DNA of 64,000 bases, from contig NZ_LXYI01000017.1 of the NCBI RefSeq assembly GCF_001650875.1, positions 62,001 through 126,000 on the forward strand, given 5' to 3'. The DNA comes from Sulfitobacter sp. EhC04 (lineage in GTDB: Bacteria > Pseudomonadota > Alphaproteobacteria > Rhodobacterales > Rhodobacteraceae). The translations under genes were made by a program, and so were the position numbers. Shown here piece by piece: positions 43,240 through 56,599 of the stretch. The number at the start of each line of letters is the position of its first letter. The stretch's first letter is position 1. A model generated the notes under the pieces. It searched no databases and was not told the DNA's origin. It saw only the letters and a list, made by a program, of their open reading frames with translations.

Positions 43240-44211
43240 TCAAACGCTATATGTGCGGTCTGCAATCGACACATTGTCCATCTCAGCATTGAGCATATCC
43301 AATAGCGTCAGTTCCGCCCGGTTCATGCTGCGCTTGGGGTTGGTCAACATGTGAATATCCACCGCAGGCAGTGATTTATAGGGCGGCAGTTGCCACAATC
43401 GGCCCAGATGCACATCCTTTAGTGCCACATGCACCGGCAAGGCCCCGATCCCGATGTTGGACATGATCATGCGACGGACTTCGGGCAGGTTCGGCGATAT
43501 CCCCTTTGAAACAACCCGCATCCGCAAACGTCGGCGCAACCGCGCGACATCCGACAATGGTCCGCCAAGCTCATCGGTCTGGAAAGAGACGGTGTTTTCA
43601 TCTTTCAGTTCCGAAAGGTCGATGTCATCGCAGCCAAATAGACGGTGCGAAGGGCCGCAGAAGAAGCCAAAATATTCCCGGTAGATCACCCGCGTGTCCA
43701 ACCCATCTGGGATGCCATTCAGCAAACAAATTCCAAATGTCGCGCGGTTCTGCTGCAAATGCGCGATGATATCCGGGCTGTCCATGGTTGAAATGACATA
43801 TGTCACCTCTGGATACAGCCCATTGAACCGCTCCAGCACCGCGTCGAAATGAGGCGACACAACATGGCTTGCCGCCGCGATGCTGATTTGGCCCGTGACC
43901 TGGTCTTCCAGCCCGCTCACAAGGTCGGGCAATTGCGCCACCGCGCCGAAAATTGAACTGGCCTCGGCATAGAGCACCTTACCTGCCGGAGTGACGCTGA
44001 AATGCTTGGGCGACCGATTGACCAGTTTGTGCCCAGTCGCATCTTCTAACCGCATCAGCGCCGCGCTGATGGTGGGCTGTTTCAGACCCAGAAAATGTGC
44101 GGCCGCTGTGATCCCGCCCTCGTCCACTATCACCATGAAGGTGCGCAGAAGGTTCCAATCCAGATTCCAGGGAAAGCGCAGTTGATAAGATTTAAGCATA
44201 GATATGATCAA
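43240..44211 (-). CDS. LysR-family regulator of the BKACE/aminotransferase operon
   Basis: A LysR regulator of up to 323 residues, with the winged helix at residues 17-75 (LDWNLLRTFMVIVDEGGITA, then GLKQPTISAALMRLED) and an effector-binding domain. The ATG four codons in (44199) may be the true start. It diverges from the substrate-binding protein gene of the adjacent ABC importer; 132-145 bp separate the starts. In this family the regulator usually activates the divergent operon in response to a pathway intermediate, which is the inference here. Confidence 0.9.
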   Translation of the reverse strand: MIISMLKSYQLRFPWNLDWNLLRTFMVIVDEGGITAAAHFLGLKQPTISAALMRLEDATGHKLVNRSPKHFSVTPAGKVLYAEASSIFGAVAQLPDLVSGLEDQVTGQISIAAASHVVSPHFDAVLERFNGLYPEVTYVISTMDSPDIIAHLQQNRATFGICLLNGIPDGLDTRVIYREYFGFFCGPSHRLFGCDDIDLSELKDENTVSFQTDELGGPLSDVARLRRRLRMRVVSKGISPNLPEVRRMIMSNIGIGALPVHVALKDVHLGRLWQLPPYKSLPAVDIHMLTNPKRSMNRAELTLLDMLNAEMDNVSIADRTYSV

Positions 44212-44343
44212 TCACAGCTATTCGGAATATCTATTTGCCCTATGACCGAGCAAGTTGCAACCTGCCCCTGAGCAGGCACATGCCCCGCTGCGCCTTTGGC
44301 GGGGTAGAACGCACGCCTGACGACAAAAACGGGAGTATATTAA
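44212..44343. promoter_or_regulatory. Divergent promoter region with a possible LysR box
   Basis: This AT-richer spacer between the LysR gene and the ABC importer operon contains ATTCGGAAT (44220-44228), a near-palindrome of the T-N-A type often bound by LysR proteins, in a context of further AT-rich half sites. Assigned by position; no footprint can be seen from sequence alone. Confidence 0.4.
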
Positions 44344-45132
44344 ATGATGAAATCGATGAACGTGCTGCGACGCGGCTTTCTGGCGGGCTCGATCGCCCTC
44401 ATGGGGGTTGGTTTGTCCCCTGTGGCCGCCAGCGCGGATGAACTGGCGGAAATCAAGGAACGTGGTGTACTTAAGATCGCGATGAGCGGCCAATACCCGC
44501 CTTTCAACTTTGTGAACGAAGAAAACAAGGTCGTCGGCTTTGACCCGGCCATCGGCACAGAAATTGCCAAACGCATGGGCCTTGAGGTCGAAATCGTGAC
44601 AACCGCCTGGGACGGGATCATCGGCGGGTTGCTGGCCAATAAATATGACGCCGTTGTCGGCTCCATGACCATCACCGAGGAACGCGACAAGGTGATTGAT
44701 TTTGTTGGCCCCTACTACCGCACCAAACGCGCCATTTTTACCAAATCGGGGTCTGACCTCACCGATGTCTCACAACTCGACGATGTGAAAGTCGGCGTGA
44801 CATTGGGTGAAACCCACGAAGAATGGGCGCGCGCGCAGGGTTATAACGTCAGCACCTACAAAGGTCTGCCCGAACTACTGCTTGAGCTGAACAATGGCCG
44901 GGTCGATGCCATTGTGAACGATTCCATCCCCGTCATGCTTGCCATGAAGGCCGGCCAATATGAGCTTGCCGTGATTGATGATCCGTCGGCAGAACCCTTT
45001 GGCGCAGGCATTGCGATCCGCGAAGGCAACCCTGATCTGTCCGCCGCCATGCAAGAGGCGCTGGACGCAATGATGGAAGATGGCACCTATCTCTCCATTG
45101 CTGAGGAATGGGTAGGCGGCGACATCCGCTAA
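44344..45132 (+). CDS. Polar amino-acid ABC importer, periplasmic binding protein
   Basis: A 262-residue family 3 solute-binding protein. The N-terminal export signal ends near residue 31 (ASADELAEIK), then comes the family start GVLKIAMSGQYPPFNFVNEE followed by VGFDPAIGTEIAKRMG, and the MTITEERDKVIDFVGPYY signature. It captures the substrate and delivers it to the two permeases and ATPase encoded downstream. An amino acid, opine or diamine is expected from the family. A hairpin (45145-45167) follows the gene, which could let this protein be made in excess of the other components. Confidence 0.93.
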   Translation: MMKSMNVLRRGFLAGSIALMGVGLSPVAASADELAEIKERGVLKIAMSGQYPPFNFVNEENKVVGFDPAIGTEIAKRMGLEVEIVTTAWDGIIGGLLANKYDAVVGSMTITEERDKVIDFVGPYYRTKRAIFTKSGSDLTDVSQLDDVKVGVTLGETHEEWARAQGYNVSTYKGLPELLLELNNGRVDAIVNDSIPVMLAMKAGQYELAVIDDPSAEPFGAGIAIREGNPDLSAAMQEALDAMMEDGTYLSIAEEWVGGDIR

Positions 45133-45144
45133 CCCCTCTGTTGT

Positions 45145-45167
45145 CAGCCGGGCCCCGTGCCTGGCTG
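45145..45167 (+). terminator. Intergenic hairpin after the binding-protein gene (attenuator/stabiliser)
   Basis: CAGCCGGG and CCTGGCTG form an eight-pair stem with one mismatch around a seven-base loop. There is no T-run, so it is more likely a message-stabilising or partially terminating hairpin, as often found after binding-protein genes of ABC importers. Confidence 0.4.
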
Positions 45168-45193
45168 GTCACCACTTGCCAAGGATTGCGCCA

Positions 45194-45985
45194 GTGACAA
45201 CGACCTATGGTCATCTGACATGGGAGGATGTGCGCGACGCCGACAAGGATCGCGTGGTCATCCTCAATGTCTCTGCCACCGAAGACCACGGGCCCCATAT
45301 GCCGCTGGACACCGATACGGTTCTGGGCATGGCCGTGGCCAACGGTGTGGCCGCCGCAGCCCCAGAAGAGGTCTTTGTCATGCCCCCGGTCCCCTATGGG
45401 TTCAATGAACACCACAAGGACTTTCCCGGTGTCATCTGGATACAGCCCGAAACGCTGATCGCCTTCGTCACCGACATCACCAAATCACTGGCGCACCACG
45501 GCTTTCGCCGCATCCTGCTGCTGAACAGCCACGGGTCAAACCACCCGGTTCTGGATCTGGCAGCGCGCAAGACCGTGATTGAAACCGGTATCATCTGTGT
45601 TTCGGCATCTTACTGGAACCTGTGTTCTGCGCGGATCAACGAGATCCGTAAATCGGACATCGGCGGCATTGCACATGCGGGTGAGTTTGAGGCGGCGATG
45701 TACATGTACCTGCACCCCAATCGGGTAAGTCTGGAAAGATCATCTACCCAGAATATCCACGACCCGAAAAGCAAATTCTTCAACCTCGATCTGGCAGGTG
45801 GCGGTGGCGGGGCCATGCTGATGCGCTGGTGGTCCGAAGTGTCGCCGGATGGCACCATGGGTGACCCGACCCTGGCCACCCCCGAAACCGGCAAGCGGTT
45901 CCTTGAGGCCGCAATCGAAGAGACCACCGCCCTCGTCCACGAAATCCGCGCGCTGCCGATCGGCAAGCGACAAGATCATCACTGA
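45194..45985 (+). CDS. Creatininase-family amidohydrolase
   Basis: A 263-residue protein of the creatininase family. Metal-ligand motifs are visible: ATEDHGPHMPLDTDT (Glu30, His32, Asp39/41), LLLNSHGSNHPVL in place of the usual NGHGGN, and HAGEFEAAMYMYL with the conserved Glu. Members hydrolyse cyclic amides or formamides (creatinine, FAPy and F420 precursors). A TTG at 45176 opens the frame, but AAGGA before the GTG at 45194 supports that start. Located between the binding protein and permease genes of the importer, so it probably acts on the imported compound, opening an amide or lactam. Confidence 0.88.
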   Translation: MTTTYGHLTWEDVRDADKDRVVILNVSATEDHGPHMPLDTDTVLGMAVANGVAAAAPEEVFVMPPVPYGFNEHHKDFPGVIWIQPETLIAFVTDITKSLAHHGFRRILLLNSHGSNHPVLDLAARKTVIETGIICVSASYWNLCSARINEIRKSDIGGIAHAGEFEAAMYMYLHPNRVSLERSSTQNIHDPKSKFFNLDLAGGGGGAMLMRWWSEVSPDGTMGDPTLATPETGKRFLEAAIEETTALVHEIRALPIGKRQDHH

Positions 45986-45997
45986 AAGGCAGCCGAT

Positions 45998-46645
45998 TTG
46001 GACACTGATCTAATCCTGCGCGTCTATCCGTTCTTCCTCGAAGCGGCATGGGTGACAATCCAACTTTCCGTTCTTACGGCGCTGCTGGGACTGTGTTGTG
46101 GTGCCCTGGGGGCCGCCGCGCGCATGTCTCGCCTGGCGGTATTCCGTTGGATCGGTGCGGTCTACGTCAGCCTTTGGCGCGGCACCCCGGCGCTGATCCA
46201 GATTTTCATTCTCTACTTTGGCGGGCCCCAGATCGGTATCCAGCTTGATAGTTTCGAGGCGGGGACAATCGCCCTTGGCGTCAACATCGGGGCCTATATG
46301 ACCGAAACCATCCGCGGCGCGATCCTGTCGGTGGACAAGGGCCAGACCGAGGCCGCCCGCACCCTGGGCATGAGCCGCTGGGAAACCATGCGAAAGGTCA
46401 TCCTGCCTCAGGCTGCACGCCTGATGATCCGCCCGCTTGGCGTCAACATAAACGCGCTGATCAAAGGCACGGCACTGGTTGCGCCGATCTCGGTCGTTGA
46501 ACTGACCTATACCGCGCAGCGCTTTATCGGATCGACCTACAAACCGTTTGAAATGTTCCTCATCGCGGGGCTGCTTTACATGGTGATCATCTATGTGGTG
46601 GGCCATGGCATCAACTGGCTGGACCGCCGGGCGCGGATCACATGA
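45998..46645 (+). CDS. Amino-acid ABC importer permease 1
   Basis: A 215-residue HisM/HisQ-type permease with about five helices and the cytoplasmic EAA loop (EAARTLGMSRWETMRKVILP). It starts with TTG, preceded by GAAAGG. Works with the second permease to form the membrane channel. Confidence 0.92.
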   Translation: MDTDLILRVYPFFLEAAWVTIQLSVLTALLGLCCGALGAAARMSRLAVFRWIGAVYVSLWRGTPALIQIFILYFGGPQIGIQLDSFEAGTIALGVNIGAYMTETIRGAILSVDKGQTEAARTLGMSRWETMRKVILPQAARLMIRPLGVNINALIKGTALVAPISVVELTYTAQRFIGSTYKPFEMFLIAGLLYMVIIYVVGHGINWLDRRARIT

Positions 46646-46675
46646 GCGGCGCGCGCATCATAACAGGAGGTCCAC

Positions 46676-47332
46676 ATGGGTCTTGATTTCACCGTGGTCC
46701 CCGGCTACTTCGGCATCCTTTTGATGGGGATGGGCTGGACCATTTCCATCACCGTCTGCGCCGGTTTGCTCAGCTTTTTCGGTGGCATCATTTTTGCGGT
46801 GATCGCCCTTTATGGCCATTGGACATTGCGCCTGCCGGTGCGTGGATTTGCCTTTCTGTTCATGGGCACGCCGCTGCTGTTGCAACTGTTCCTGATCTAC
46901 TTTGGCCTGATCCAGATCGGCATCGACCTGCCCGCCTTTGTAGCGGGGGTGATCGGGCTGGGTTTGCACTTTGCGGTCTATAATTCCGAACTGATCCAGG
47001 CGTCGATCCTTGCTGTGGACAAGGGGCAGTACGAGGGCGCGCGCACCCTTGGCCTGTCGCGCGGCCAGACCCTGCGCCGCATCGTGATCCCGCAGGCGGT
47101 GCGCGCCGTGATCCCGCCGATGGGCAACAACATGATTGCGCTGCTCAAGGATTCCGCGCTGGTCTCCGTGATTGGGGTGATGGAACTGACGCTCGCCGCG
47201 CAGCAGGCCATCAGCCGCACCTACCGGCCGTTCGAATTCTACCTCGCGGCCGCCTTTTGCTATTACATCATCAACCTCGCGCTCGAGGCGGGATTGCGCC
47301 GTCTGGAACGCCGCATCGCCGCATCGCGCTGA
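46676..47332 (+). CDS. Amino-acid ABC importer permease 2
   Basis: A 218-residue HisM/HisQ-type permease with the EAA loop ([20 protein letters not shown]) and an additional conserved motif [25 protein letters not shown] lies just upstream of the ATG. Partner of permease 1; heterodimeric permeases are usual for polar amino-acid importers. Confidence 0.92.
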
Positions 47333-47346
47333 GCCGGGAGAATACC

Positions 47347-48108
47347 ATGACTGACCAAGCCTTTGTCACCATCAAGAACGCCGCCAAAAGCTTTGGCAAA
47401 CTGGAGGTCTTGCGTGACATCAACCTGACCGTCGAACGCGGCCAGATCGTTGCCATCATCGGCCCGTCGGGGTCTGGCAAATCAACGCTGCTGCGCGCGA
47501 TCAACGAACTTGACCCGCTGACCTCGGGCGAGGTCTGGCTCGAAGGGGTGCAGATTAACAAGAAGCTGCCCCACCGCCAGTACGAGGCCCATGTGAACCA
47601 AGTGCGCCAGGACATCGGCATGGTGTTCCAACACTTCAACCTGTTCCCGCATCTTACCGTGCGCGGCAACATCACGCTGGCCCCCACGATGCTCAAAGGG
47701 CTGTCCGACGCCGATGCCAATGCGCTGGCCGAGGAACAACTCGCCAAGGTGGGGCTGTCGGAAAAGATTGACGAATACCCATCGCGCCTGTCCGGTGGCC
47801 AGAAACAGCGCGTCGCCATCGCCCGTGCGCTGGCGATGAAACCCAAGGTCATGCTGTTCGACGAGGCCACATCGGCCCTCGACCCGGAACTGGTCGACGA
47901 AGTGAACCTCGTGATGAAACAACTGGCCGAAGAACACATGACCATGATCATCGTCACCCATGAGATGGATTTTGCCGCCTCTGTCTGCGACCGAGTGTTG
48001 TTCATGGATCAGGGCGTGGTGGTTGAAGAAGGCCCGCCTTCAGTGATCTTTGAAAAACCCGAACACGAACGCACCCGCAACTTTCTGCGCAAACACCTGA
48101 GCCGCTGA
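47347..48108 (+). CDS. Amino-acid ABC importer ATPase
   Basis: A 253-residue ATPase with Walker [11 protein letters not shown]-loop [10 protein letters not shown], signature LSGGQKQR, Walker [13 protein letters not shown] and switch THEMDFA. The sequence fits the GlnQ/HisP group. The ATG at 47347 follows GGGAG; a longer frame overlaps permease 2 and is rejected. The next gene starts on the base after its stop. Confidence 0.94.
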
Positions 48109-49446
48109 ATGTCGAACCTGTTCTATCAGACCAAATCCCCGCGCCCCGTGTTGGAGCGGGCAGACGGGATTTACATGTGGGACACCTCCGGCAAACGCTA
48201 CATCGACGGATCATCCGGCGCGATGGTCAGCAATATCGGCCATTCCAATCCCGCCGTTCTGGACGCGATGCGGGCCCAGATGGACAAATCCACCTTCGGG
48301 TATCGCCTGCATTTCCAAACCCAACCCTCCGAAGAGCTAGCGGCACGCACGGCGGCCCTGGCCCCTGCTGGCCTGAACAAGGTCTTCTTTGTCTCCGGCG
48401 GATCAGAGGCGGTTGAAAGCGCCATCAAGATGGCCCGCCAATACGCCCTGACCCAGGGTCAGGCGCAGCGCAGCAAGGTGATCTCGCGCTTTCCCAGCTA
48501 TCATGGCTGCACCCTGGGCGCGCTGGCCCTGACCGGCACCGCAACGATGACCGCACCCTTCGACCCGATGATGCGCGCCATGCCCAAAATCCCGGCACCG
48601 CGTGCCTATCTGGATGGGCTGGATGCCGATGACCCGGCCACGGGCCACCACTATGCAGATATGCTTGAGGCCAAGATACTGGAGGAAGGCCCCGATACCG
48701 TGCTGGCCTTTATCGTCGAACCTGTCGGCGGGGCATCGACTGGCGCGCTGGTGCCGCCTGCGGGCTATATGCAACGCATCCGCGAGATTTGCACCCGATA
48801 CGAGGTGCTGCTGATCCACGACGAGGTGATGACAGGTGGCGGACGCACCGGGCGCTTTTTCGGGGCGGAGCACTGGGATGTCACCCCCGATCTAATCGCC
48901 TTGTCCAAGGGTTTCGGCGGCGGTTACGTGCCGCTGGGGGCGATGATCGCACGGGATGACATTGTCGAGGCGGTGATGAACGCAGGGGGGTTCATTCACG
49001 GCTTTACCTATGCCGGCAACCCGCTGGCCTGTGCCGCTGGTTGTGCGGTGCTGGACCAGATCGAACAACACGACCTCACGGGCAACGCCGCACGTTTGGG
49101 TGATGCGCTGGCGGACCGCCTCCGTGGCCTGATGCAACGCTATCCCATGATAGGCGATGTGCGCGGCAAAGGGCTGCTTATGGCGTTTGAACTGATGGCC
49201 GACCGCACCAGCAAAAATCCCCTGCCCGCCACTTTGAACGCCCATGCACGGCTGGTCGACATCGCCTATGACAACGGCTTGATCATATATTCCCGGCGCA
49301 CGCGCGGCGGTACATCGGGGGATCATTTCATGATCTGCCCTCCGATGCTTGTGACCACCGATCAACTGGACGAAATGGCAGACATCCTCGACCGCTCGCT
49401 CGCCACCTACATGGCCGAAATCCCCGACCTGTCACGCGCAAGCTGA
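48109..49446 (+). CDS. Class III (omega/beta-amino acid type) aminotransferase
   Basis: A 445-residue PLP enzyme. Visible motifs are DGSSGAMVSNIGHSNP, VSGGSEAVESAIKMARQY (phosphate cup), YHGCTLGALALTG, LIHDEVMTGGGRTG (cofactor aspartate) and LIALSKGFGGGYVPLG with the PLP lysine. Class III enzymes act on omega-amino, beta-amino or diamine nitrogens rather than alpha-amino groups. In this operon it would create a keto acid for the following BKACE enzyme, which needs a beta-keto acid, so a beta-amino acid is the most economical substrate. It is directly adjacent to the ATPase gene with no spacer. Confidence 0.9.
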   Translation: MSNLFYQTKSPRPVLERADGIYMWDTSGKRYIDGSSGAMVSNIGHSNPAVLDAMRAQMDKSTFGYRLHFQTQPSEELAARTAALAPAGLNKVFFVSGGSEAVESAIKMARQYALTQGQAQRSKVISRFPSYHGCTLGALALTGTATMTAPFDPMMRAMPKIPAPRAYLDGLDADDPATGHHYADMLEAKILEEGPDTVLAFIVEPVGGASTGALVPPAGYMQRIREICTRYEVLLIHDEVMTGGGRTGRFFGAEHWDVTPDLIALSKGFGGGYVPLGAMIARDDIVEAVMNAGGFIHGFTYAGNPLACAAGCAVLDQIEQHDLTGNAARLGDALADRLRGLMQRYPMIGDVRGKGLLMAFELMADRTSKNPLPATLNAHARLVDIAYDNGLIIYSRRTRGGTSGDHFMICPPMLVTTDQLDEMADILDRSLATYMAEIPDLSRAS

Positions 49447-49455
49447 GGAGGCTTC

Positions 49456-50382
49456 ATGTCCAAAATCATCATCACCTGCGCCATCACCGGGTCAATCCAC
49501 ACGCCGTCGATGTCGCCCCATCTGCCCGTGACAGCCACGCAAATCACCGACAACGCCATAGACGCCGCCGCAGCCGGGGCCGCCATCCTGCACTTGCACG
49601 CGCGTGATCCCGACGATGGGCGGCCCTCGGCGCAGCCCGATCACTTCATGGCCTTCCTGCCACAGATCAAACAACGCAGCGATGCGGTGCTGAACCTGAC
49701 CACAGGCGGCAGCGCCACAATGACGCTTGAAGCCCGCCTGGCCGCGCCGAAACTGGCCGAACCGGAGATGTGTTCGCTGAACATGGGCACAATGAACTTT
49801 GCGCTTTACCCGGCGGCGGAGCGGATCGGCGACTGGAAATACGACTGGGAAAAACCTTTTCTCGAAGGGTCCGATGATCTGGTGTTCAAAAACACGCCGC
49901 GCGACATGGCGCATGTGTTGCACGAAATGGGCGACAAACGCGGCGCACGTTTTGAATTTGAATGCTACGATGTCAGCCACCTCTACATGCTGCGCCATTT
50001 CATGGATCGCGGTCTGGTGCAGGCACCGCTGTTCATCCAGTTTGTCTTTGGTGTGCTTGGAGGTATCGGGCCGGACCCGGAAAACCTGACCCATATGAAA
50101 CGGATCGCAGATAAGCTCTTTGGCGATGGTTACACCTTTTCCGTGCTGGCCGCAGGACGCCACCAGATGCCCTTGATTACCATGTCTGCGATCATGGGCG
50201 GTCATGTGCGCGTCGGACTTGAGGACAGTCTGATGATCTCGCGCGGGACACTGGCCCGCGACAACGCCGAACAGGTCGCCAAGATTCGCCGCATCGTCGA
50301 GGATCTGGGACGCACCGTCGCCACCCCTGCCGAGGCGCGAGAGATGCTGCACCTCAAGGGCGCGGACTGCACCTCGATATGA
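49456..50382 (+). CDS. BKACE-family beta-keto acid cleavage enzyme
   Basis: A 308-residue protein of the beta-keto acid cleavage enzyme family (DUF849, founding member 3-keto-5-aminohexanoate cleavage enzyme). Seen are ITCAITGSIHTPSMSPHLPV, the zinc-binding HLHARDPDDGRP, EMCSLNMGTMNF, FVFGVLGGIGPDPENL and GGHVRVGLED. The enzyme condenses a beta-keto acid with acetyl-CoA and splits the adduct into acetoacetate and a new acyl-CoA. GAGGAGGCTTC precedes the ATG. The preceding aminotransferase can supply the beta-keto acid. The side chain that decides substrate in the family cannot be judged with certainty from sequence alone. Confidence 0.93.
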   Translation: MSKIIITCAITGSIHTPSMSPHLPVTATQITDNAIDAAAAGAAILHLHARDPDDGRPSAQPDHFMAFLPQIKQRSDAVLNLTTGGSATMTLEARLAAPKLAEPEMCSLNMGTMNFALYPAAERIGDWKYDWEKPFLEGSDDLVFKNTPRDMAHVLHEMGDKRGARFEFECYDVSHLYMLRHFMDRGLVQAPLFIQFVFGVLGGIGPDPENLTHMKRIADKLFGDGYTFSVLAAGRHQMPLITMSAIMGGHVRVGLEDSLMISRGTLARDNAEQVAKIRRIVEDLGRTVATPAEAREMLHLKGADCTSI

Positions 50383-50861
50383 GCAATATCACCATCGCCC
50401 CCGTCACCCCCGATACCTTGCCGATGTTCGAACATGGCCTGCGTGCTTTGGCCGAACATTTGGGCGACCCCTACCGCGCCGATCCCGAAGGGCTGAAATT
50501 GGCGATCACAACCGCGGACAGTTGGTGTCTTGCCCTGCTTGCACAGGACGACGGCCAACCGCTTGGCGCACTGCTGGCCGCCCCGTATTTTTCGACATCA
50601 CGCGGTGGGCCGGGGCTTTTCGTCTCTGATCTCTGGGTTGCCGAACCCGCGGGCGGCCAAGGGTTGGGGCGTCGCCTGCTGGCCGAAGCCCTGCACGCCA
50701 AACCGGCGTGGGGGCACGTGCAGTTCATCCGCCTGGCGGTCTATAAATACAACGCGGCAGCCCACGCCGCCTATCTGCGCATGGGCTTTGCCGCGCAGGA
50801 CAGCGAAACAGCCATGTTGATCACGGGACCGCCCCTGGATCAGCTGAAAGGACAGTCTTGA
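50379..50861 (+). CDS. GNAT-family N-acetyltransferase
   Basis: A 160-residue GNAT protein with the acetyl-CoA loop (AGGQGLGRRLLAEA, the Q/R-x-x-G-x-G/A pattern) and a C-terminal KYNAAAHAAYLRMGF segment, the usual fold end. Closely resembles diamine/amino-acid side-chain acetyltransferases in layout. Overlaps the BKACE gene and the deacetylase gene by four bases each (ATGA), so all three are co-translated. Would acetylate an amino group of a pathway compound or substrate. Confidence 0.88.
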   Translation: MSNITIAPVTPDTLPMFEHGLRALAEHLGDPYRADPEGLKLAITTADSWCLALLAQDDGQPLGALLAAPYFSTSRGGPGLFVSDLWVAEPAGGQGLGRRLLAEALHAKPAWGHVQFIRLAVYKYNAAAHAAYLRMGFAAQDSETAMLITGPPLDQLKGQS

Positions 50862-51886
50862 AAGCGTTTTTTGACGACCGCCAATGGAAACACCAGCCGC
50901 GTCACTTCATGGCCAATGGCACCGTAATGCCAAACCCCGAACAGGCCGAACGCATCGACCGCCTGTTGGCAGGAGCACGCTCCGCTGGTTGTGATGTGGC
51001 CGCCCCCATAGACGCAGGTACAGGCCCCATCGCGGCGATCCATTCCCCCGAATACCTGACCTTTCTGGAAAACATCCACCCCCGCTGGATGCGGATAGAG
51101 GGCGGCGGCGAAGAGGTGATCCCCAATATCCACCCGGCCAATCGCACCGACAGCTATCCAAAATCCGCCGTTGGCCAGGCAGGGTTTCACCAGGCCGACA
51201 CCGCCTGCCCCATCGCCGCCGGTACATGGGAGGCCGCCTATTGGTCCGCCCAATCCGCCATCACCGCCGCCGATGCCGTGGCTGCGGGTGCCGGGGCCGC
51301 CTATGCACTTTGCCGCCCGCCGGGGCACCATGCCTTTGGTGATATGGCCGGGGGATTTTGCTTTCTGAACAACTCCGGCATCGGTGCCGAACGCCTGCGC
51401 GCCCAAGGGCTGCGGTCTGCGATTCTGGATGTGGACGTACACCATGGCAATGGCACCCAAGGTATCTTTTACCACCGCGATGACGTGCTGACTCTTTCCC
51501 TGCACGCCGATCCTGAACGGTTCTACCCCTTCTTCTGGGGGCAGGCGCATGAACGTGGCGCAGGTGCCGGGCTGGGCTATAACCTCAACCTGCCCCTGCC
51601 CCGCGGCACCACTGACGCAGAGTTTCTGTCCACCCTCGACATCGCCCTGCAACGGATCAAATCCTTTGGGGCCGATGTGGTGGTTGTGGCGCTTGGCCTT
51701 GATGCCTTCAAAGGTGACCCGTTCAAGGGGTTTGCCGTGACAACCCAAGGGTTTGCCCAAATCGGCGGGGCCATCGCCCGGTTGGGCCTGCCCACCCTCT
51801 TTGTGCAGGAAGGCGGTTATCTGTGTGATGAATTGGGTGACAACCTGACCGCTACTCTTGGCGGTTTCAGCGAAAAATCCCACTGA
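50858..51886 (+). CDS. HDAC-like acetylpolyamine amidohydrolase
   Basis: A 342-residue zinc deacetylase of the histone-deacetylase family. Visible motifs are RPPGHHAFGDMAGGFCFLNN (catalytic His pair), ILDVDVHHGNGTQGIFY (zinc Asp and His), LGLDAFKGDP (zinc Asp) and VQEGGY (transition-state Tyr). The long loop before the first motif (WMRIEGGGEEVI region) is as in bacterial acetylpolyamine amidohydrolases, which remove acetyl groups from acetylated diamines and polyamines. Overlaps the acetyltransferase gene; last gene of the operon. Confidence 0.91.
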   Translation: MKAFFDDRQWKHQPRHFMANGTVMPNPEQAERIDRLLAGARSAGCDVAAPIDAGTGPIAAIHSPEYLTFLENIHPRWMRIEGGGEEVIPNIHPANRTDSYPKSAVGQAGFHQADTACPIAAGTWEAAYWSAQSAITAADAVAAGAGAAYALCRPPGHHAFGDMAGGFCFLNNSGIGAERLRAQGLRSAILDVDVHHGNGTQGIFYHRDDVLTLSLHADPERFYPFFWGQAHERGAGAGLGYNLNLPLPRGTTDAEFLSTLDIALQRIKSFGADVVVVALGLDAFKGDPFKGFAVTTQGFAQIGGAIARLGLPTLFVQEGGYLCDELGDNLTATLGGFSEKSH

Positions 51887-51957: not shown

Positions 51958-52440
51958 TTATTCGATCAGATAATCTTGCTCGAACCAGTATTCTTCCAGG
52001 TTCGTGCCCTCACCGATACGGTCAATGACAGCAAAAAGACCGGTTTCCGATAGCGGGGCCAGAACGCCATGCCAAATCCCCCTGTGAAAATTGATGGCTT
52101 GGCCTGGCTCGGTCAAAAACGCCTTTGGGTCCACCGGAATGCCATTGTCATCCTGGCAGACCACGACCAGAAAGGAATTGGCTGACATCGGTACGAAGGC
52201 CTGGCTGCCCTTCGGGTGGCGTTCGACCATCTTCAGTTTCAGGGGCAAGGATTCCATTTCGCCCTTGAAGATGCTTATGCCCGCGCGCCCGTCGGAAAAA
52301 TCGAGGTGCGCCCTGTCATGGTAGCGTCCACACTTGCCTCGGTTGATGATCTTGTCAGGCGCGCCGGAAGCATCCAAGAGGTCACCATAGGGTTCAAAGG
52401 AAACTGCTGACAGCTTCTCGAGTTTGAGGTGAATGGTCAT
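51958..52440 (-). CDS. allA: Ureidoglycolate lyase
   Basis: A 160-residue protein of the ureidoglycolate lyase (AllA) family, with the FEPYGDLLDASG start, INRGKCGRYHDRAHLDF, VERHPKGSQAFVPM and the INFHRGIWHGVL cupin motif. It splits ureidoglycolate into glyoxylate and urea. The ATG at 52440 overlaps the stop of puuE-uraD (ATGA). The glyoxylate produced is the starting compound of the beta-hydroxyaspartate cycle encoded 5 kb away. Confidence 0.93.
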   Translation of the reverse strand: MTIHLKLEKLSAVSFEPYGDLLDASGAPDKIINRGKCGRYHDRAHLDFSDGRAGISIFKGEMESLPLKLKMVERHPKGSQAFVPMSANSFLVVVCQDDNGIPVDPKAFLTEPGQAINFHRGIWHGVLAPLSETGLFAVIDRIGEGTNLEEYWFEQDYLIE

Positions 52441-53849
52441 GATCCGAACCACTCAAGAAGCCGCAATTCCGCAATGCGTTCAACCTGGCTGCAGGCTTCT
52501 CCAAATTCCGTCTCCCAGTCGTTGCCGATGCGCCGTTTGAAGGCATCCTCGATGCTGGCCTTGGTATTGTCCCTGACCGCAATGATGAATGGAAATTCGA
52601 ACCTGGCGGTGTATGTTTCGTTCAGTTCCGTAAAATTGGCGCGTTCCTGATCCGTGAGCTTGTCAAGACCTGCGCCCGCTTGTTCGGCAGTGCTTTCGGG
52701 CGTCAACCGTCCCGCTGCTGCAAGTTTCCCGGCAAGATCAGGGTGCGCCGTGAGCACGCTCAGGCGCTGCTGCTCGGATGCACCACGAAACACACTGGAA
52801 AGGGCCTGATGCACACCTTGCGCTGTGTCATGGGTCGGACCAAGCTCACCGTCAAAGGCAGCTTCGGCGATCCATGCGGAATGTTCGTAAATGCCCCCGA
52901 ACTCAGAGATAAAGGTGGCGCGGTCCATCTCTGACGGTCTGTTGAATATCACAGGAGGGTTCTCCTTGATCCAGTGTTGTGCAATTTGATGGCGTGTCGC
53001 GAACCAGACGCCGTCGTGCGATTTCATGTATTCAATGACACGGCGCAAAGCAGCGGCACGCCCAGGCCGTCCGATCAACCGGCAGTGCAGGCCGATGGAC
53101 AGCATTTTCGGCGCACCGCTTTCACCCTCTTCGTAGAGGATGTCAAAGCTGTCCTTCAGATAGGATTCAAATTGATCTCCGTTGGTGAAACCGGCCTGTA
53201 TGGCAAACCGCATGTCGTTGCAGTCCATCGTATAGGGGACGATCAGCTGGTGTCGGCCTGCGAAGGTCATCCAGTATGGAAGATCGTCTGCATAGCTGTC
53301 GGCAACGTAATCGAACTGCCCCGTTTCAGCGGCCAGTCGCACCGTATTGTTTGAACATCGCCCTGTGTACCAACCCCGCGGGGCTTCGCCCACGGCCAGC
53401 CTATGCACCCGGATCGCTTCGGCAATCTGTGCGCGCTCTTCTTCTTCCGTCATGTCCTTGTGCTCGACCCACTTTAATCCGTGACTGGCAATCTCCCAAT
53501 CGGCGTCTTTCATGGCGGCAACCTGTTCCGGGGCCCGTCCAAGTGCGGTTGCGACGCCGTAAACCGTGACCGGAATGTCCTTGAGCATCCGATGAATACG
53601 CCAGAATCCGGCGCGCGATCCATATTCGTAGATCGATTCCATGTTCCAATGACGCTGTCCGGGCCATGGTTGCGCGCCTGTGATCTCCGAAAGAAAGGCC
53701 TCGGACGCAGGGTCCCCATGCAGGATATTGTTCTCGCCGCCTTCTTCGTAGTTTAGTACGATCTGCACAGCGATTTTTGCACCATTTGGCCAATTTGCGG
53801 TTGGCGGTGTGGCACCATATCCGGTCATGTCGCGCGGGTATCGATTCAT
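52437..53849 (-). CDS. puuE: Allantoinase (PuuE) fused to OHCU decarboxylase (UraD)
   Basis: A 470-residue fusion. Residues 1-about 305 are the polysaccharide-deacetylase-like allantoinase PuuE (YPRDMTGYGATPPTANWPNG, IVLNYEEGGENNILHGD, WEIASHGLKWVEHKDM). Residues from about 306 form the 2-oxo-4-hydroxy-4-carboxy-5-ureidoimidazoline (OHCU) decarboxylase domain (FGGIYEHSAWIAEAAF, LTAHPDLAGKLA, FEFPFIIAVRDN). The two activities turn OHCU into allantoin and then allantoate. The fused order is known in purine clusters of proteobacteria. Divergent from uraH. Confidence 0.94.
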   Translation of the reverse strand: MNRYPRDMTGYGATPPTANWPNGAKIAVQIVLNYEEGGENNILHGDPASEAFLSEITGAQPWPGQRHWNMESIYEYGSRAGFWRIHRMLKDIPVTVYGVATALGRAPEQVAAMKDADWEIASHGLKWVEHKDMTEEEERAQIAEAIRVHRLAVGEAPRGWYTGRCSNNTVRLAAETGQFDYVADSYADDLPYWMTFAGRHQLIVPYTMDCNDMRFAIQAGFTNGDQFESYLKDSFDILYEEGESGAPKMLSIGLHCRLIGRPGRAAALRRVIEYMKSHDGVWFATRHQIAQHWIKENPPVIFNRPSEMDRATFISEFGGIYEHSAWIAEAAFDGELGPTHDTAQGVHQALSSVFRGASEQQRLSVLTAHPDLAGKLAAAGRLTPESTAEQAGAGLDKLTDQERANFTELNETYTARFEFPFIIAVRDNTKASIEDAFKRRIGNDWETEFGEACSQVERIAELRLLEWFGS

Positions 53850-53990
53850 TTCAGTCCTCCTGGTTGGACTGCTTGTAATTCAAAACAATAACTAGGATTT
53901 TCAAAAAAATCATGAAGGAGCCTCAATCAGCTCCGGGTTTGTGAATCATGACGCCAATTGACAGACTGTGCGAAACCTAAGGAGCATGCC

Positions 53991-54344
53991 ATGTCCGGTT
54001 ATTTGACCACCCACGTTCTCGATACAGCCAGAGGCTGCCCGGCCGAAGGGTTGAAAATCGAGCTTTTCCGAATTGATGGGGAGGAGCGCATGCGGCTGAA
54101 ATCGGTCGTCACCAACGATGACGGGCGCACGGATTCTCAGATCCTGCCAGCCGAGGCGTTTGAAGTGGGAGTTTATGAGCTGGTTTTTCATGCCGGTTCC
54201 TATCTCGACCGCACGGGAACACCGGCGGAGCAGCCCAGATTTCTCGACGTCATCCCCCTTCGGTTCGGCATGTCGCATGCGCAACATTACCATGTGCCGC
54301 TGCTGCTTTCCCCCTTCGGCTATTCGACTTATCGCGGAAGCTGA
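53991..54344 (+). CDS. uraH: 5-hydroxyisourate hydrolase
   Basis: A 117-residue transthyretin-like protein. It starts [20 protein letters not shown] (family start motif with the active-site His) and ends [19 protein letters not shown], the C-terminal YRGS signature. It hydrolyses 5-hydroxyisourate to OHCU. AAGGAG lies six bases before the ATG at 53991, preferred to a start 11 codons upstream. No signal peptide, so cytoplasmic. Its 3' end overlaps the convergent LysR gene by 16 bp. Confidence 0.95.
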
Positions 54345-55261
54345 TCAGGCAGCCTTGTGTCCTTTATGACGCCTGCGATCCGTTCCGAGACGAAATCCAT
54401 GAAGAGCCGGGACTTCGGATCCTGATGCCTGCGGTGCGTAAACAGGCAGGCCATCTGGATGGGTTCAGGAGGCGTCTCCTCCCCGACGACGGCCAACTCA
54501 CCGGTTTTGAGATGTTGGGCCACTTCGAAAACGGGTTTCAGTGCAATGCCGTGACCTGCCAGCGCCCAATCCACCAGAACGTCACCGTCGTCACATTCAT
54601 AACGTCCGGCGACGCGGAAACGCTTTGGTCCTGAAGCCGTGATCAGCGGCCACTGGAACTCTGTCGCACCAGGAAAGCGAAGGTTCAGGCACTCGTGCTT
54701 GTCCCTGACAATTTCATGGCCAGAATGCGGATGCCCACGCTGCGCGATGTAGGCTGGGGATGCGCAGAGCACTCTTTGTACATCTGCAATTTTCTTGATC
54801 TTCAAATTGCTGTCCTCGGGCTGGCCAAGGAAATAGGCAAGATCCAACCCTTCTGTGGTGAGATCGACCTTTCGGTCGGTCAACCGCAACCGCACGCTGA
54901 CATCCGGATATTCCGCCAGAAATGCCGGCACCTGCGGCGCAATCAGCCGCCTGCCAACACCTAAGGGTGCAGCCACATAGAGTGATCCCCTTGGGCTGTC
55001 TGTGATCGCCGTGACCTGCGCCTCTGCCGCTTCGATGGATTCCAGTATCTCGCAGGCGCCCCGATAAAAGGCCTGGCCCTGCTCGGTCACGCTCAGGTTC
55101 CGCGTGGTCCGCTGAAACAGCCTGACGCCCAGATGATCTTCCAATTGGGAAATCCGCGACGAAGTTACCGCTGGCGAGACCCGCAGATCGCGACCGGCAG
55201 CCGACATGCTGCCAAGCTCGTAGACCCGGACAAAAGTTCGGATGTTCTCAAAGTAAGACAT
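54329..55261 (-). CDS. LysR-family regulator (purine island, copy 1)
   Basis: A 310-residue LysR protein with the N-terminal helix-turn-helix ([20 protein letters not shown], then [18 protein letters not shown]). The reading frame stays open far upstream into puuD, but the family start is the ATG at 55261; the extension is antisense to puuD and is rejected. It diverges from puuD, so control of urate oxidation is the likely role, with urate or an intermediate as signal. It is clearly paralogous to the regulator at 63175. Confidence 0.92.
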
Positions 55262-55360
55262 TGTTCTGCTTTTTTTGATACAGCTTGGGAACTCACAGCA
55301 ATACCAGAACAATCCTTTCTCGCCTAGTCTGTTGTCAGCTTCGATTCCAGGGAGGTGGAA

Positions 55361-56599
55361 ATGTACGACTTCGCAATCATGTGGGACTGGTTCGCTTTTT
55401 CGATCCGATGGCTGCACGTCATCACGGCAATGGCCTGGATCGGCGCTTCGTTCTACTTCATCGCCCTCGACCTGATGCTGAAACCCGCAGAGGACATGCC
55501 CGAGGGCGCATATGGCGAAGAGTGGGAAGTTCATGGCGGTGGCTTTTACCACACCACGAAATACCTGGTGGCCCCCGCCCGCATGCCAGAGCACCTGACC
55601 TGGCATAAATGGCAAAGCTACGCGACCTGGCTCTCTGGTGCGGGGCTTTTGATGATCATCTACTGGGTGGGCGGCGAGCTGTTCCTGCTGGACCCCACCA
55701 AGGCCGACCTCTTCCTCTGGCAAGGTGTCCTGATCTCCGGTGGTTCGCTGACCCTCGGCTGGCTGGCCTATGATTTCATGTGCAAATCGAAGCTGAGTGA
55801 AAAGCCGACAATGCTCATGCTGCTTTTGTTTGTGATCCTCGTGGTGATGTCCTGGGGATATAACCAGATCTTCACGGGCCGCGCCGCCCTGCTGCATCTG
55901 GGCGCTTTCACCGCGACCATCATGACAGCCAACGTTTTCTTCCAGATCATGCCAAATCAGCGTGTCGTGGTCGAGGACCTCAAGGCAGGGCGCACCCCGG
56001 ATGCCAAATACGGCAAGATTGCCAAGGTGCGGTCGACCCACAACAACTACCTCACGCTGCCGGTCGTTTTTCTGATGCTCAGCAACCATTATCCGCTGGC
56101 TTTCGGCACCCAATATGCTTGGATCATCGCCAGCCTGATCTTTCTGACCGGCGTGACGATCCGGCATTACTTCAACACGATGCACAAGACCGGAACGGGC
56201 CCCCATTGGACATGGGCTGTCACGGTCATTTTGATGATCACAATCGCCTGGCTGTCCTCCGTTCGGCCCACCGAAACGATAGAGAACGCCGAAGCCCGCG
56301 ATCTGACACTCTATGAGCAGAGGTTTGTGGCCGCAGAAGGGTTCGACGACGCTTACGATATCGTTCTGGGAAATTGTTCGATGTGCCACGCACGCGAGCC
56401 GTTCTGGGATGGAATCAGATGGGCACCAAAAGGCGTGTTCCTCGAAACCCAGGGCGATGTGGCGCGGCATGCAGATCAGATCTATCTTCAGGCCGGTGTC
56501 AGCCACGCCATGCCACCGCCAAATGCCATCGCGACAATGACCCCCGAAAGCCGGGAAAAGATCATCGCATGGGTGCGCAACGCGCGCGCTGAGAAATGA
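55361..56599 (+). CDS. puuD: Urate hydroxylase PuuD (membrane-anchored, cytochrome c domain)
   Basis: A 412-residue protein. The N-terminal about 310 residues have eight membrane helices of the PuuD type (WDWFAFSIRWLHVITAMAWI, GGGFYHTTKYLVAPARMP, then histidines along the helices). The C-terminal about 100 residues are a cytochrome c domain with one CxxCH (CSMCH). It oxidises urate to 5-hydroxyisourate and passes electrons to the respiratory chain. GGAGGTGGAA precedes the ATG at 55361. Divergent from the LysR gene; convergent with bhcD. Confidence 0.94.
   Translation: MYDFAIMWDWFAFSIRWLHVITAMAWIGASFYFIALDLMLKPAEDMPEGAYGEEWEVHGGGFYHTTKYLVAPARMPEHLTWHKWQSYATWLSGAGLLMIIYWVGGELFLLDPTKADLFLWQGVLISGGSLTLGWLAYDFMCKSKLSEKPTMLMLLLFVILVVMSWGYNQIFTGRAALLHLGAFTATIMTANVFFQIMPNQRVVVEDLKAGRTPDAKYGKIAKVRSTHNNYLTLPVVFLMLSNHYPLAFGTQYAWIIASLIFLTGVTIRHYFNTMHKTGTGPHWTWAVTVILMITIAWLSSVRPTETIENAEARDLTLYEQRFVAAEGFDDAYDIVLGNCSMCHAREPFWDGIRWAPKGVFLETQGDVARHADQIYLQAGVSHAMPPPNAIATMTPESREKIIAWVRNARAEK

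Follow-up and report, generated by a model that had tools for sequence, protein, structure and literature searches.

A Sulfitobacter operon proposed to scavenge beta-lysine or N6-acetyl-beta-lysine

The window analysed here, a stretch of 64,000 nucleotides from Sulfitobacter sp. EhC04, is part of contig C17 of a 4.85 Mb genome and carries an operon of nine genes on the + strand (44344-51886), read in the order substrate-binding protein (SBP), creatininase, permease, permease, ATPase, class III aminotransferase (AT3), beta-keto acid cleavage enzyme (BKACE), GNAT and HDAC-fold deacetylase, with a LysR gene running divergently from it. We propose, at a probability of about one in two, that this operon scavenges beta-lysine (3,6-diaminohexanoate), its N6-acetyl form or both. 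In the compared loci, which are given L-numbers (e.g. L136), the genes for cleavage and deacylation are replaced by unrelated ones, and this replacement is seen directly, together with gene content and conservation. The features of the locus are as follows.

43240..44211, - strand: LysR-type regulator (Pfam LysR_substrate and HTH_1; PF00126, PF03466)
44196..44241, no strand: putative LysR operator, an ATAGAT-N3-ATCTAT-like inverted repeat plus the TATCTATTTGC element (spacer alignment)
44344..45132, + strand: periplasmic binding protein, polar amino acid family (Pfam SBP_bac_3, 136 bits)
45176..45985, + strand: creatininase-family amidohydrolase, accessory (Pfam PF02633, 228 bits)
45998..46645, + strand: amino acid ABC permease 1 (Pfam BPD_transp_1; TIGR01726 above cut-off)
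46676..47332, + strand: amino acid ABC permease 2 (Pfam BPD_transp_1; TIGR01726 above cut-off)
47347..48108, + strand: amino acid ABC ATPase (Pfam ABC_tran; start judged from sequence)
48109..49446, + strand: AT3, proposed N6-acetyl-beta-lysine transaminase, a predicted specificity (Pfam Aminotran_3 PF00202, 352 bits)
49456..50382, + strand: BKACE, proposed 3-keto-6-acetamidohexanoate cleavage enzyme, a predicted specificity (Pfam PF05853, 369 bits)
50379..50861, + strand: GNAT, proposed beta-lysine N6-acetyltransferase, a predicted specificity (Pfam Acetyltransf_1)
50858..51886, + strand: HDAC-fold enzyme, proposed 4-acetamidobutyryl-CoA / 4-acetamidobutyrate deacetylase, a predicted specificity (Pfam Hist_deacetyl PF00850, 239 bits)

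Every named gene is an open frame at its listed place and scored above the Pfam cut-offs for its family, so the importer-creatininase-aminotransferase-BKACE-GNAT-HDAC operon described in a first-pass annotation of this DNA is real. That annotation gave the operon a span of 43240..51886; the genes within it are as it stated, and since LysR is divergent the operon itself begins at 44344. Spacing on the + strand ranges from 4-base overlaps (BKACE/GNAT and GNAT/HDAC) to a 43-base gap. Judged from the sequence, LysR probably starts at the ATG at 44199, and for the ATPase the ATG at 47347 is more likely than the mechanically called TTG at 47257.

The comparison set was built from several scans. A BKACE scan over 84,980 species returned at least 572 relatives among at least 597 pattern matches, and the best 80 were taken. 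An AT3 scan at E <= 1e-120 found matches in 23 of 398 genomes of the same phylum, the window's own included, and a scan in another order in 5 of 244 genomes, its centre locus included. BKACE also matched 152 plasmid records, and four regions from these were added. The resulting table holds 102 loci, 82 with an AT3 above 300 bits and 20 with BKACE but without AT3, the window not being counted. Locus contents were scored by tblastn over a range of 7.5 or 8 kb, a search that distant homologues may escape, and two loci (L029 and L037) stop before or inside the deacetylase region.

AT3, BKACE, GNAT and HDAC were all present in 57 of the 82 AT3 loci, and the grouping is therefore more than chance. 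BKACE was found in 74 of them, a coenzyme A (CoA) transferase instead in seven and neither in one; a thiolase accompanied the CoA-transferase in six of the seven, the remaining locus (L124) reaching its contig end. GNAT was present in 65/82 loci, an HDAC or an ArgE/DapE-type deacylase in 76/82, and GNAT together with an HDAC- or ArgE-type gene in cis in 61/82. Because the first 80 loci were picked by BKACE, the number of them that hold it cannot count as independent evidence. The set chosen by AT3 (n = 23, window included) had BKACE beside AT3 in 17, CoA-transferase in three and neither in three (L103, L104 and L106), so that a partner able to cleave a beta-keto acid adjoins AT3 in 20/23.

The strongest constraint on the chemistry came from the variant loci. 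In L113, a locus not of the window's class, the genes after AT3 encode 3-oxoacid CoA-transferase subunits A and B and a thiolase, with BKACE absent; these proteins exceed the TIGR02429, TIGR02428 and TIGR01930 cut-offs, and further on lie a polar-amino-acid importer (its ATPase 62% to that of the window), an HDAC and RidA. L125, L126 and L127 carry AT3, CoA-transferase A and B, an ArgE/DapE-type deacylase (above two subfamily cut-offs in L125), a thiolase and a polar-amino-acid importer; L126 and L127 also carry GNAT by Pfam. L136 belongs to the window's own family and retains LysR (51%), SBP (69%), creatininase (85%), the permeases, the ATPase (75%) and AT3 (70%), after which the order is GNAT-CoTA-CoTB-ArgE-thiolase, its ArgE-type protein being 40% to that of L125 and its thiolase 36% to that of L113 (the GNAT is called by Pfam on L089, the same gene). 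L116 resembles L136 without creatininase and GNAT, and L130 reads AT3-BKACE-GNAT-ArgE, with HDAC absent. On an AT3 tree of 82 rows including the window (short search, SH-aLRT support), L136 and L116 are nested among the BKACE/HDAC loci L013, L026, L033 and L035 (support 91-95), and the minimum number of changes is three for cleavage type, five for deacylase type, five for importer and 15 for GNAT.

CoA-transferase plus thiolase is the textbook alternative for beta-keto acid cleavage, and ArgE/DapE enzymes are amide deacylases. The exchange of BKACE for the former and of HDAC for the latter therefore indicates that the product of AT3 is a beta-keto acid and that a deacylation is among the steps. 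A beta-keto acid intermediate and an acyl mask are thus well supported by inference from two separate kinds of gene swap, and this two-way interchange of modules is a strong internal check on the chemistry. The first-pass annotation had proposed that a beta-amino acid loses its beta-amino group and that the resulting beta-keto acid is then split, and the replacement of BKACE by CoA-transferase and thiolase argues strongly for this. A route for an alpha-amino acid through N6-acetyl-lysine was considered and rejected, as its alpha-keto acid fits neither BKACE nor CoA-transferase plus thiolase.

The interchange implies no chain length. The same machinery could act on a different beta-amino acid that carries a second amine open to acetylation, such as beta-ornithine, 3,4-diaminobutyrate, a C7 homologue, or a lactam or amide opened first by the creatininase or by an amidase of the N,N-dimethylformamidase beta-like (DMFA) type, which we hold to be possible and on balance doubtful. 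The accessory genes speak for it. Creatininase was found in only 5/82 AT3 loci, the window being extra, and a DMFA-type amidase (DMFA2_C) in 6/82; two unrelated accessory families of amide hydrolases suggest that outside the cell the compound occurs as an amide or lactam. The acids in question are not known to be common in nature, and in one genus a neighbouring gene indicates a C4 product: L127 has a 4-aminobutyrate (GABA) transaminase beside the cluster (TIGR00700, 533.9 against a cut-off of 506.65), and L126 has an 88% match to it. This neighbour suits the C4 product expected from beta-lysine and is moderate evidence, because it is convergent and confined to that genus. The first-pass annotation had placed creatininase in the core; it is an add-on, and the recurring core is AT3-BKACE-GNAT-deacetylase with a variable importer. 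A DMFA2_C protein goes with the core at rhizobial and certain other loci (L070, L082, L084, L110, L115 and L118, and also L050, L066 and L079), and creatininase is absent from all of these.

The properties of the BKACE bear on the state of the second amine. AT3 fell just short of the cut-off of its best NCBIfam model, PRK07483 (464 against 485), and BKACE scored 369 bits against a Pfam cut-off of 24.8 and exceeded the cut-off of NF053538 (514.6 against 430), with 3e02, 3e49, 8rio and 8rip as its kin among solved structures. Its HxH metal motif was read from the sequence as His46 and His48, a numbering that we take to be identical in Kce, the cleavage enzyme of lysine fermentation. At the position aligned by eye with Kce Glu14, which presumably contacts the substrate amine, all 74 BKACE rows hold Ile (63) or Val (11). 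On the same branch, BKACE15 of Paracoccus denitrificans has confirmed substrates that are neutral, including beta-ketohexanoate and 3,5-dioxohexanoate, in the passages of PMC11961710 consulted. The window's BKACE thus fits a neutral side chain. Passages of four papers searched for BKACE substrate lists (PMC10915406, PMC12712682, PMC4922564 and PMC12133276) gave no answer for 3-keto-6-acetamidohexanoate.

These data favour an acetyl group that probably stays on through cleavage. The free 3-keto-6-aminohexanoate is expected on chemical grounds to cyclise to a five-membered cyclic imine, and the acetyl group would for this reason serve as a mask; an acetyltransferase and a deacetylase placed around the transaminase and the cleavage step look like protection of the second amine. 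The first-pass annotation had written the opposite order, with deacetylation first and a free-amine keto acid split to 4-aminobutyryl-CoA. That order uses the same gene set and would agree with a deacylase being commoner than GNAT, yet it would make GNAT futile in the 65 loci that have it and in the CoA-transferase variants L126, L127 and L136, and it would run into the cyclisation just mentioned. The hydrophobic residue at the Kce Glu14 position and the neutral substrates of the BKACE15 branch also oppose it, and the co-occurrence of GNAT and deacylase in cis suits a mask; we consider it very improbable.

The HDAC-fold enzyme raises the question of polyamines. The alignment had 68 rows, the window and 67 loci, with L043, L052 and L072 dropped, and six catalytic positions, covering the His pair, the zinc ligands and the Tyr (His157, His158, Asp193, His195, Asp282 and Tyr321), were kept in 68/68. 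Window Phe17, Val105 and Ala116 align to Glu17, Glu106 and Glu117 of the M. ramosa acetylpolyamine amidohydrolase, of which we take Glu17 and Glu117 to be polyamine-pocket residues. All three positions were non-acidic in 66/68 rows and likewise in L113 and L125, aligned separately; the acidic exceptions, from L126 and L127, are encoded away from the cluster and on the opposite strand, and resemble 6phr. According to passages of PMC11532494, M. ramosa Glu106 binds polyamine. The non-acidic pocket weakens the case for a polyamine substrate on alignment grounds.

Acetylpolyamine degradation would make the HDAC an acetylpolyamine amidohydrolase and AT3 a polyamine transaminase, with BKACE acting on, for example, malonate semialdehyde. 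The HDAC's nearest solved kin bear the name acetylpolyamine amidohydrolase, which speaks for it, as does the importer: among the 82 AT3 loci 47 have a Pot-like type, whose best NCBIfam matches are PotB and PotC, below cut-off, 20 have a polar-amino-acid type as in the window, and neither was found in 15. A Paracoccus BKACE acts on malonate semialdehyde in the sections available of PMC11961710. Two points about the pocket also weigh against our proposal: a Pseudomonas polyamine deacetylase with His instead of Glu at 106 is active on acetylputrescine in the parts of PMC11532494 seen, and 3men, the nearest solved chain and named an acetylpolyamine aminohydrolase, is non-acidic at the same three positions. 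A non-acidic pocket is therefore not exclusive of polyamines, and these two points make this alternative slightly more probable and our proposal slightly less so. It remains improbable in our estimate, since the pocket is so consistently non-acidic, CoA-transferase plus thiolase would be an odd substitute for malonate semialdehyde cleavage, and AT3 has its beta-keto acid cleaving partner alongside in most AT3-chosen loci. In Pot-like loci (L006, L014, L046 and others) a DAO-type FAD oxidoreductase, RidA or both extend the operon downstream of HDAC; the counts are 31/82 for DAO and 21/82 for RidA.

For beta-lysine scavenging, the steps would run as follows. The ABC importer would bring in beta-lysine or N6-acetyl-beta-lysine, and GNAT would acetylate the 6-amino group, a step dispensable if the acetylated solute enters, as may happen in loci without GNAT. 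AT3 would then transaminate the 3-amino group to give 3-keto-6-acetamidohexanoate, which BKACE with acetyl-CoA would convert to acetoacetate and 4-acetamidobutyryl-CoA. The HDAC-fold enzyme would strip the acetyl group, CoA would be freed either by that enzyme too or by a thioesterase, and the 4-aminobutyrate left would enter the ordinary GABA route. A 4HBT_2-family thioesterase-like gene adjoins the LysR gene in L079 (where AT3 was not found), L110 and L111, with a 43% match in L118. The binding protein matched no NCBIfam equivalog above cut-off, and none of the importer parts exceeded any substrate-specific NCBIfam cut-off. In none of the 34 hosts tested did AblA exceed its cut-off, and the window's genome has none either; beta-lysine is for this reason more likely to come from outside.

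Several points besides the two on the pocket weigh against this pathway. The identity of the substrate, with its six carbons, is something we infer, as are the specificity of each enzyme and the role of creatininase. The GABA transaminase neighbour occurs in two species of the one genus and outside the operon, and the AT3s of L126 and L127 are set apart from all others by a long branch (1.97). Sub-cut-off KamA-like matches in 10/34 hosts, up to 365 bits against the AblA cut-off of 525, make endogenous synthesis of beta-lysine possible there. NF053538 is named after 3,5-dioxohexanoate, and portions of PMC11961710 say that the gene context of BKACE15 suggests aromatic degradation and that its physiological role is unknown. 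L103 and L104 read DMFA-AT3-GNAT-HDAC, without a BKACE in cis where one would normally stand, and L106 has AT3 alone. DAO, RidA and the DMFA-type amidase are unaccounted for by a beta-lysine route. GNAT was not found in 17/82 loci: in 11 HDAC begins at most 100 bases after BKACE, four belong to the CoA-transferase type (one of them reaching its contig end), and the others are L037, which is cut, and L009, which is without HDAC too. Plasmid pW43C of Parasedimentitalea marina (L108, 11017-13303) reads AT3-BKACE-HDAC, then an amidohydrolase and an alanine racemase, with no GNAT annotated. With these points weighed, beta-lysine or N-acetyl-beta-lysine, the candidate named by the first-pass annotation, remains the best found.

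A LysR homologue lay within 8 kb of AT3 in 59/82 loci. An operator-like element is kept in nine aligned divergent spacers (window, L005, L037, L007, L010, L012, L013, L136 and L116), and is thus common to BKACE loci and to two CoA-transferase variants, L136 and L116; the window's copy of the ATAGAT-N3-ATCTAT-like repeat is imperfect. This conserved element is a possible LysR operator, and its presence in both variants speaks for the proposed pathway.

After the operon, at 51958-56599, the window carries genes for Ureidogly_lyase, a Polysacc_deac_1 and OHCU_decarbox fusion (allantoinase-like plus OHCU decarboxylase), Transthyretin (HIUase) and Urate_ox_N. A link to uric acid was tried and rejected: among the best 80 BKACE-chosen loci only L010 and L055 matched any of the four (urate oxidase), and we therefore treat the purine-breakdown genes as chance neighbours. 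Elsewhere in the window's genome there are three more BKACE genes, and the class III aminotransferase model TIGR00700 has 12 more matches, of which one, on another contig, is above cut-off; these BKACE and TIGR00700 matches sit on contigs C9, C22, C89 and others.

More tentatively, the operon may give the genetic basis of beta-lysine or N6-acetyl-beta-lysine scavenging in marine and rhizosphere Pseudomonadota. The HDAC fold would there have shifted from polyamines to a small acid or CoA ester, possibly with deacetylation and thioester hydrolysis in one enzyme, hydrolases of the creatininase or DMFase type would release the substrate from a lactam or amide source, and orphan activities would receive genes. 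If the proposed pathway is right, activities described more than 40 years ago, to which genes are not known to have been assigned, would gain expressible candidates. An aerobic consumer would be predicted for N-acetyl-beta-lysine, which methanogens and some bacteria use as a compatible solute, and a real function would attach to genes that now carry the labels "histone deacetylase family", "aspartate aminotransferase family" or "3-keto-5-aminohexanoate cleavage protein".

The first-pass annotation knew of no described pathway with this gene set; one with these reactions has reportedly been described. Barker, Ohsugi, Bozler and colleagues reportedly worked out beta-lysine degradation in Pseudomonas by enzyme work in about 1979-81. 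Its steps are said to be a beta-lysine acetyltransferase, an N6-acetyl-beta-lysine transaminase (EC 2.6.1.65), cleavage of 3-keto-6-acetamidohexanoate, a 4-acetamidobutyryl-CoA deacetylase (EC 3.5.1.51) and a GABA transaminase. That work is not known to have named any genes. In the open-access literature searched we found no gene assignment for beta-lysine degradation and nothing on its degradation or catabolism; full-text searches for the pathway intermediates returned only unrelated metabolomics work, and open-access work on beta-lysine, among the matches listed, dealt mainly with its role as a solute and mentioned none of the intermediates. On this account the chemistry is known, and its genes and operon were not found in the open-access literature searched. 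On gene content, the operon probably holds the unassigned genes of this route described decades ago.

Compared with the reported Pseudomonas route, the four reactions map one to one onto GNAT, AT3, BKACE and HDAC, and the importer, LysR and creatininase are additions of the window's operon. The window's BKACE is of the same branch as BKACE15 (8rio, 8rip, 9hnf) and scores above the family cut-off of NF053538. With Kce (2y7d, NF052387) it has in common the superfamily and the type of reaction, but it scores 243.5 bits against the NF052387 cut-off of 382 and has Ile at the Glu14-aligned position. The window's creatininase belongs with the creatininase/MftE family through PF02633 but misses both equivalog cut-offs, TIGR04448 for creatininase (106.5 against 235) and TIGR03964 for MftE (128.3 against 172). 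Finally, the window's HDAC shares the fold family and the six checked catalytic positions with the acetylpolyamine amidohydrolases 3q9b, 6phr and 9gkz, but is non-acidic at the three aligned pocket positions, of which 9gkz retains one acidic.

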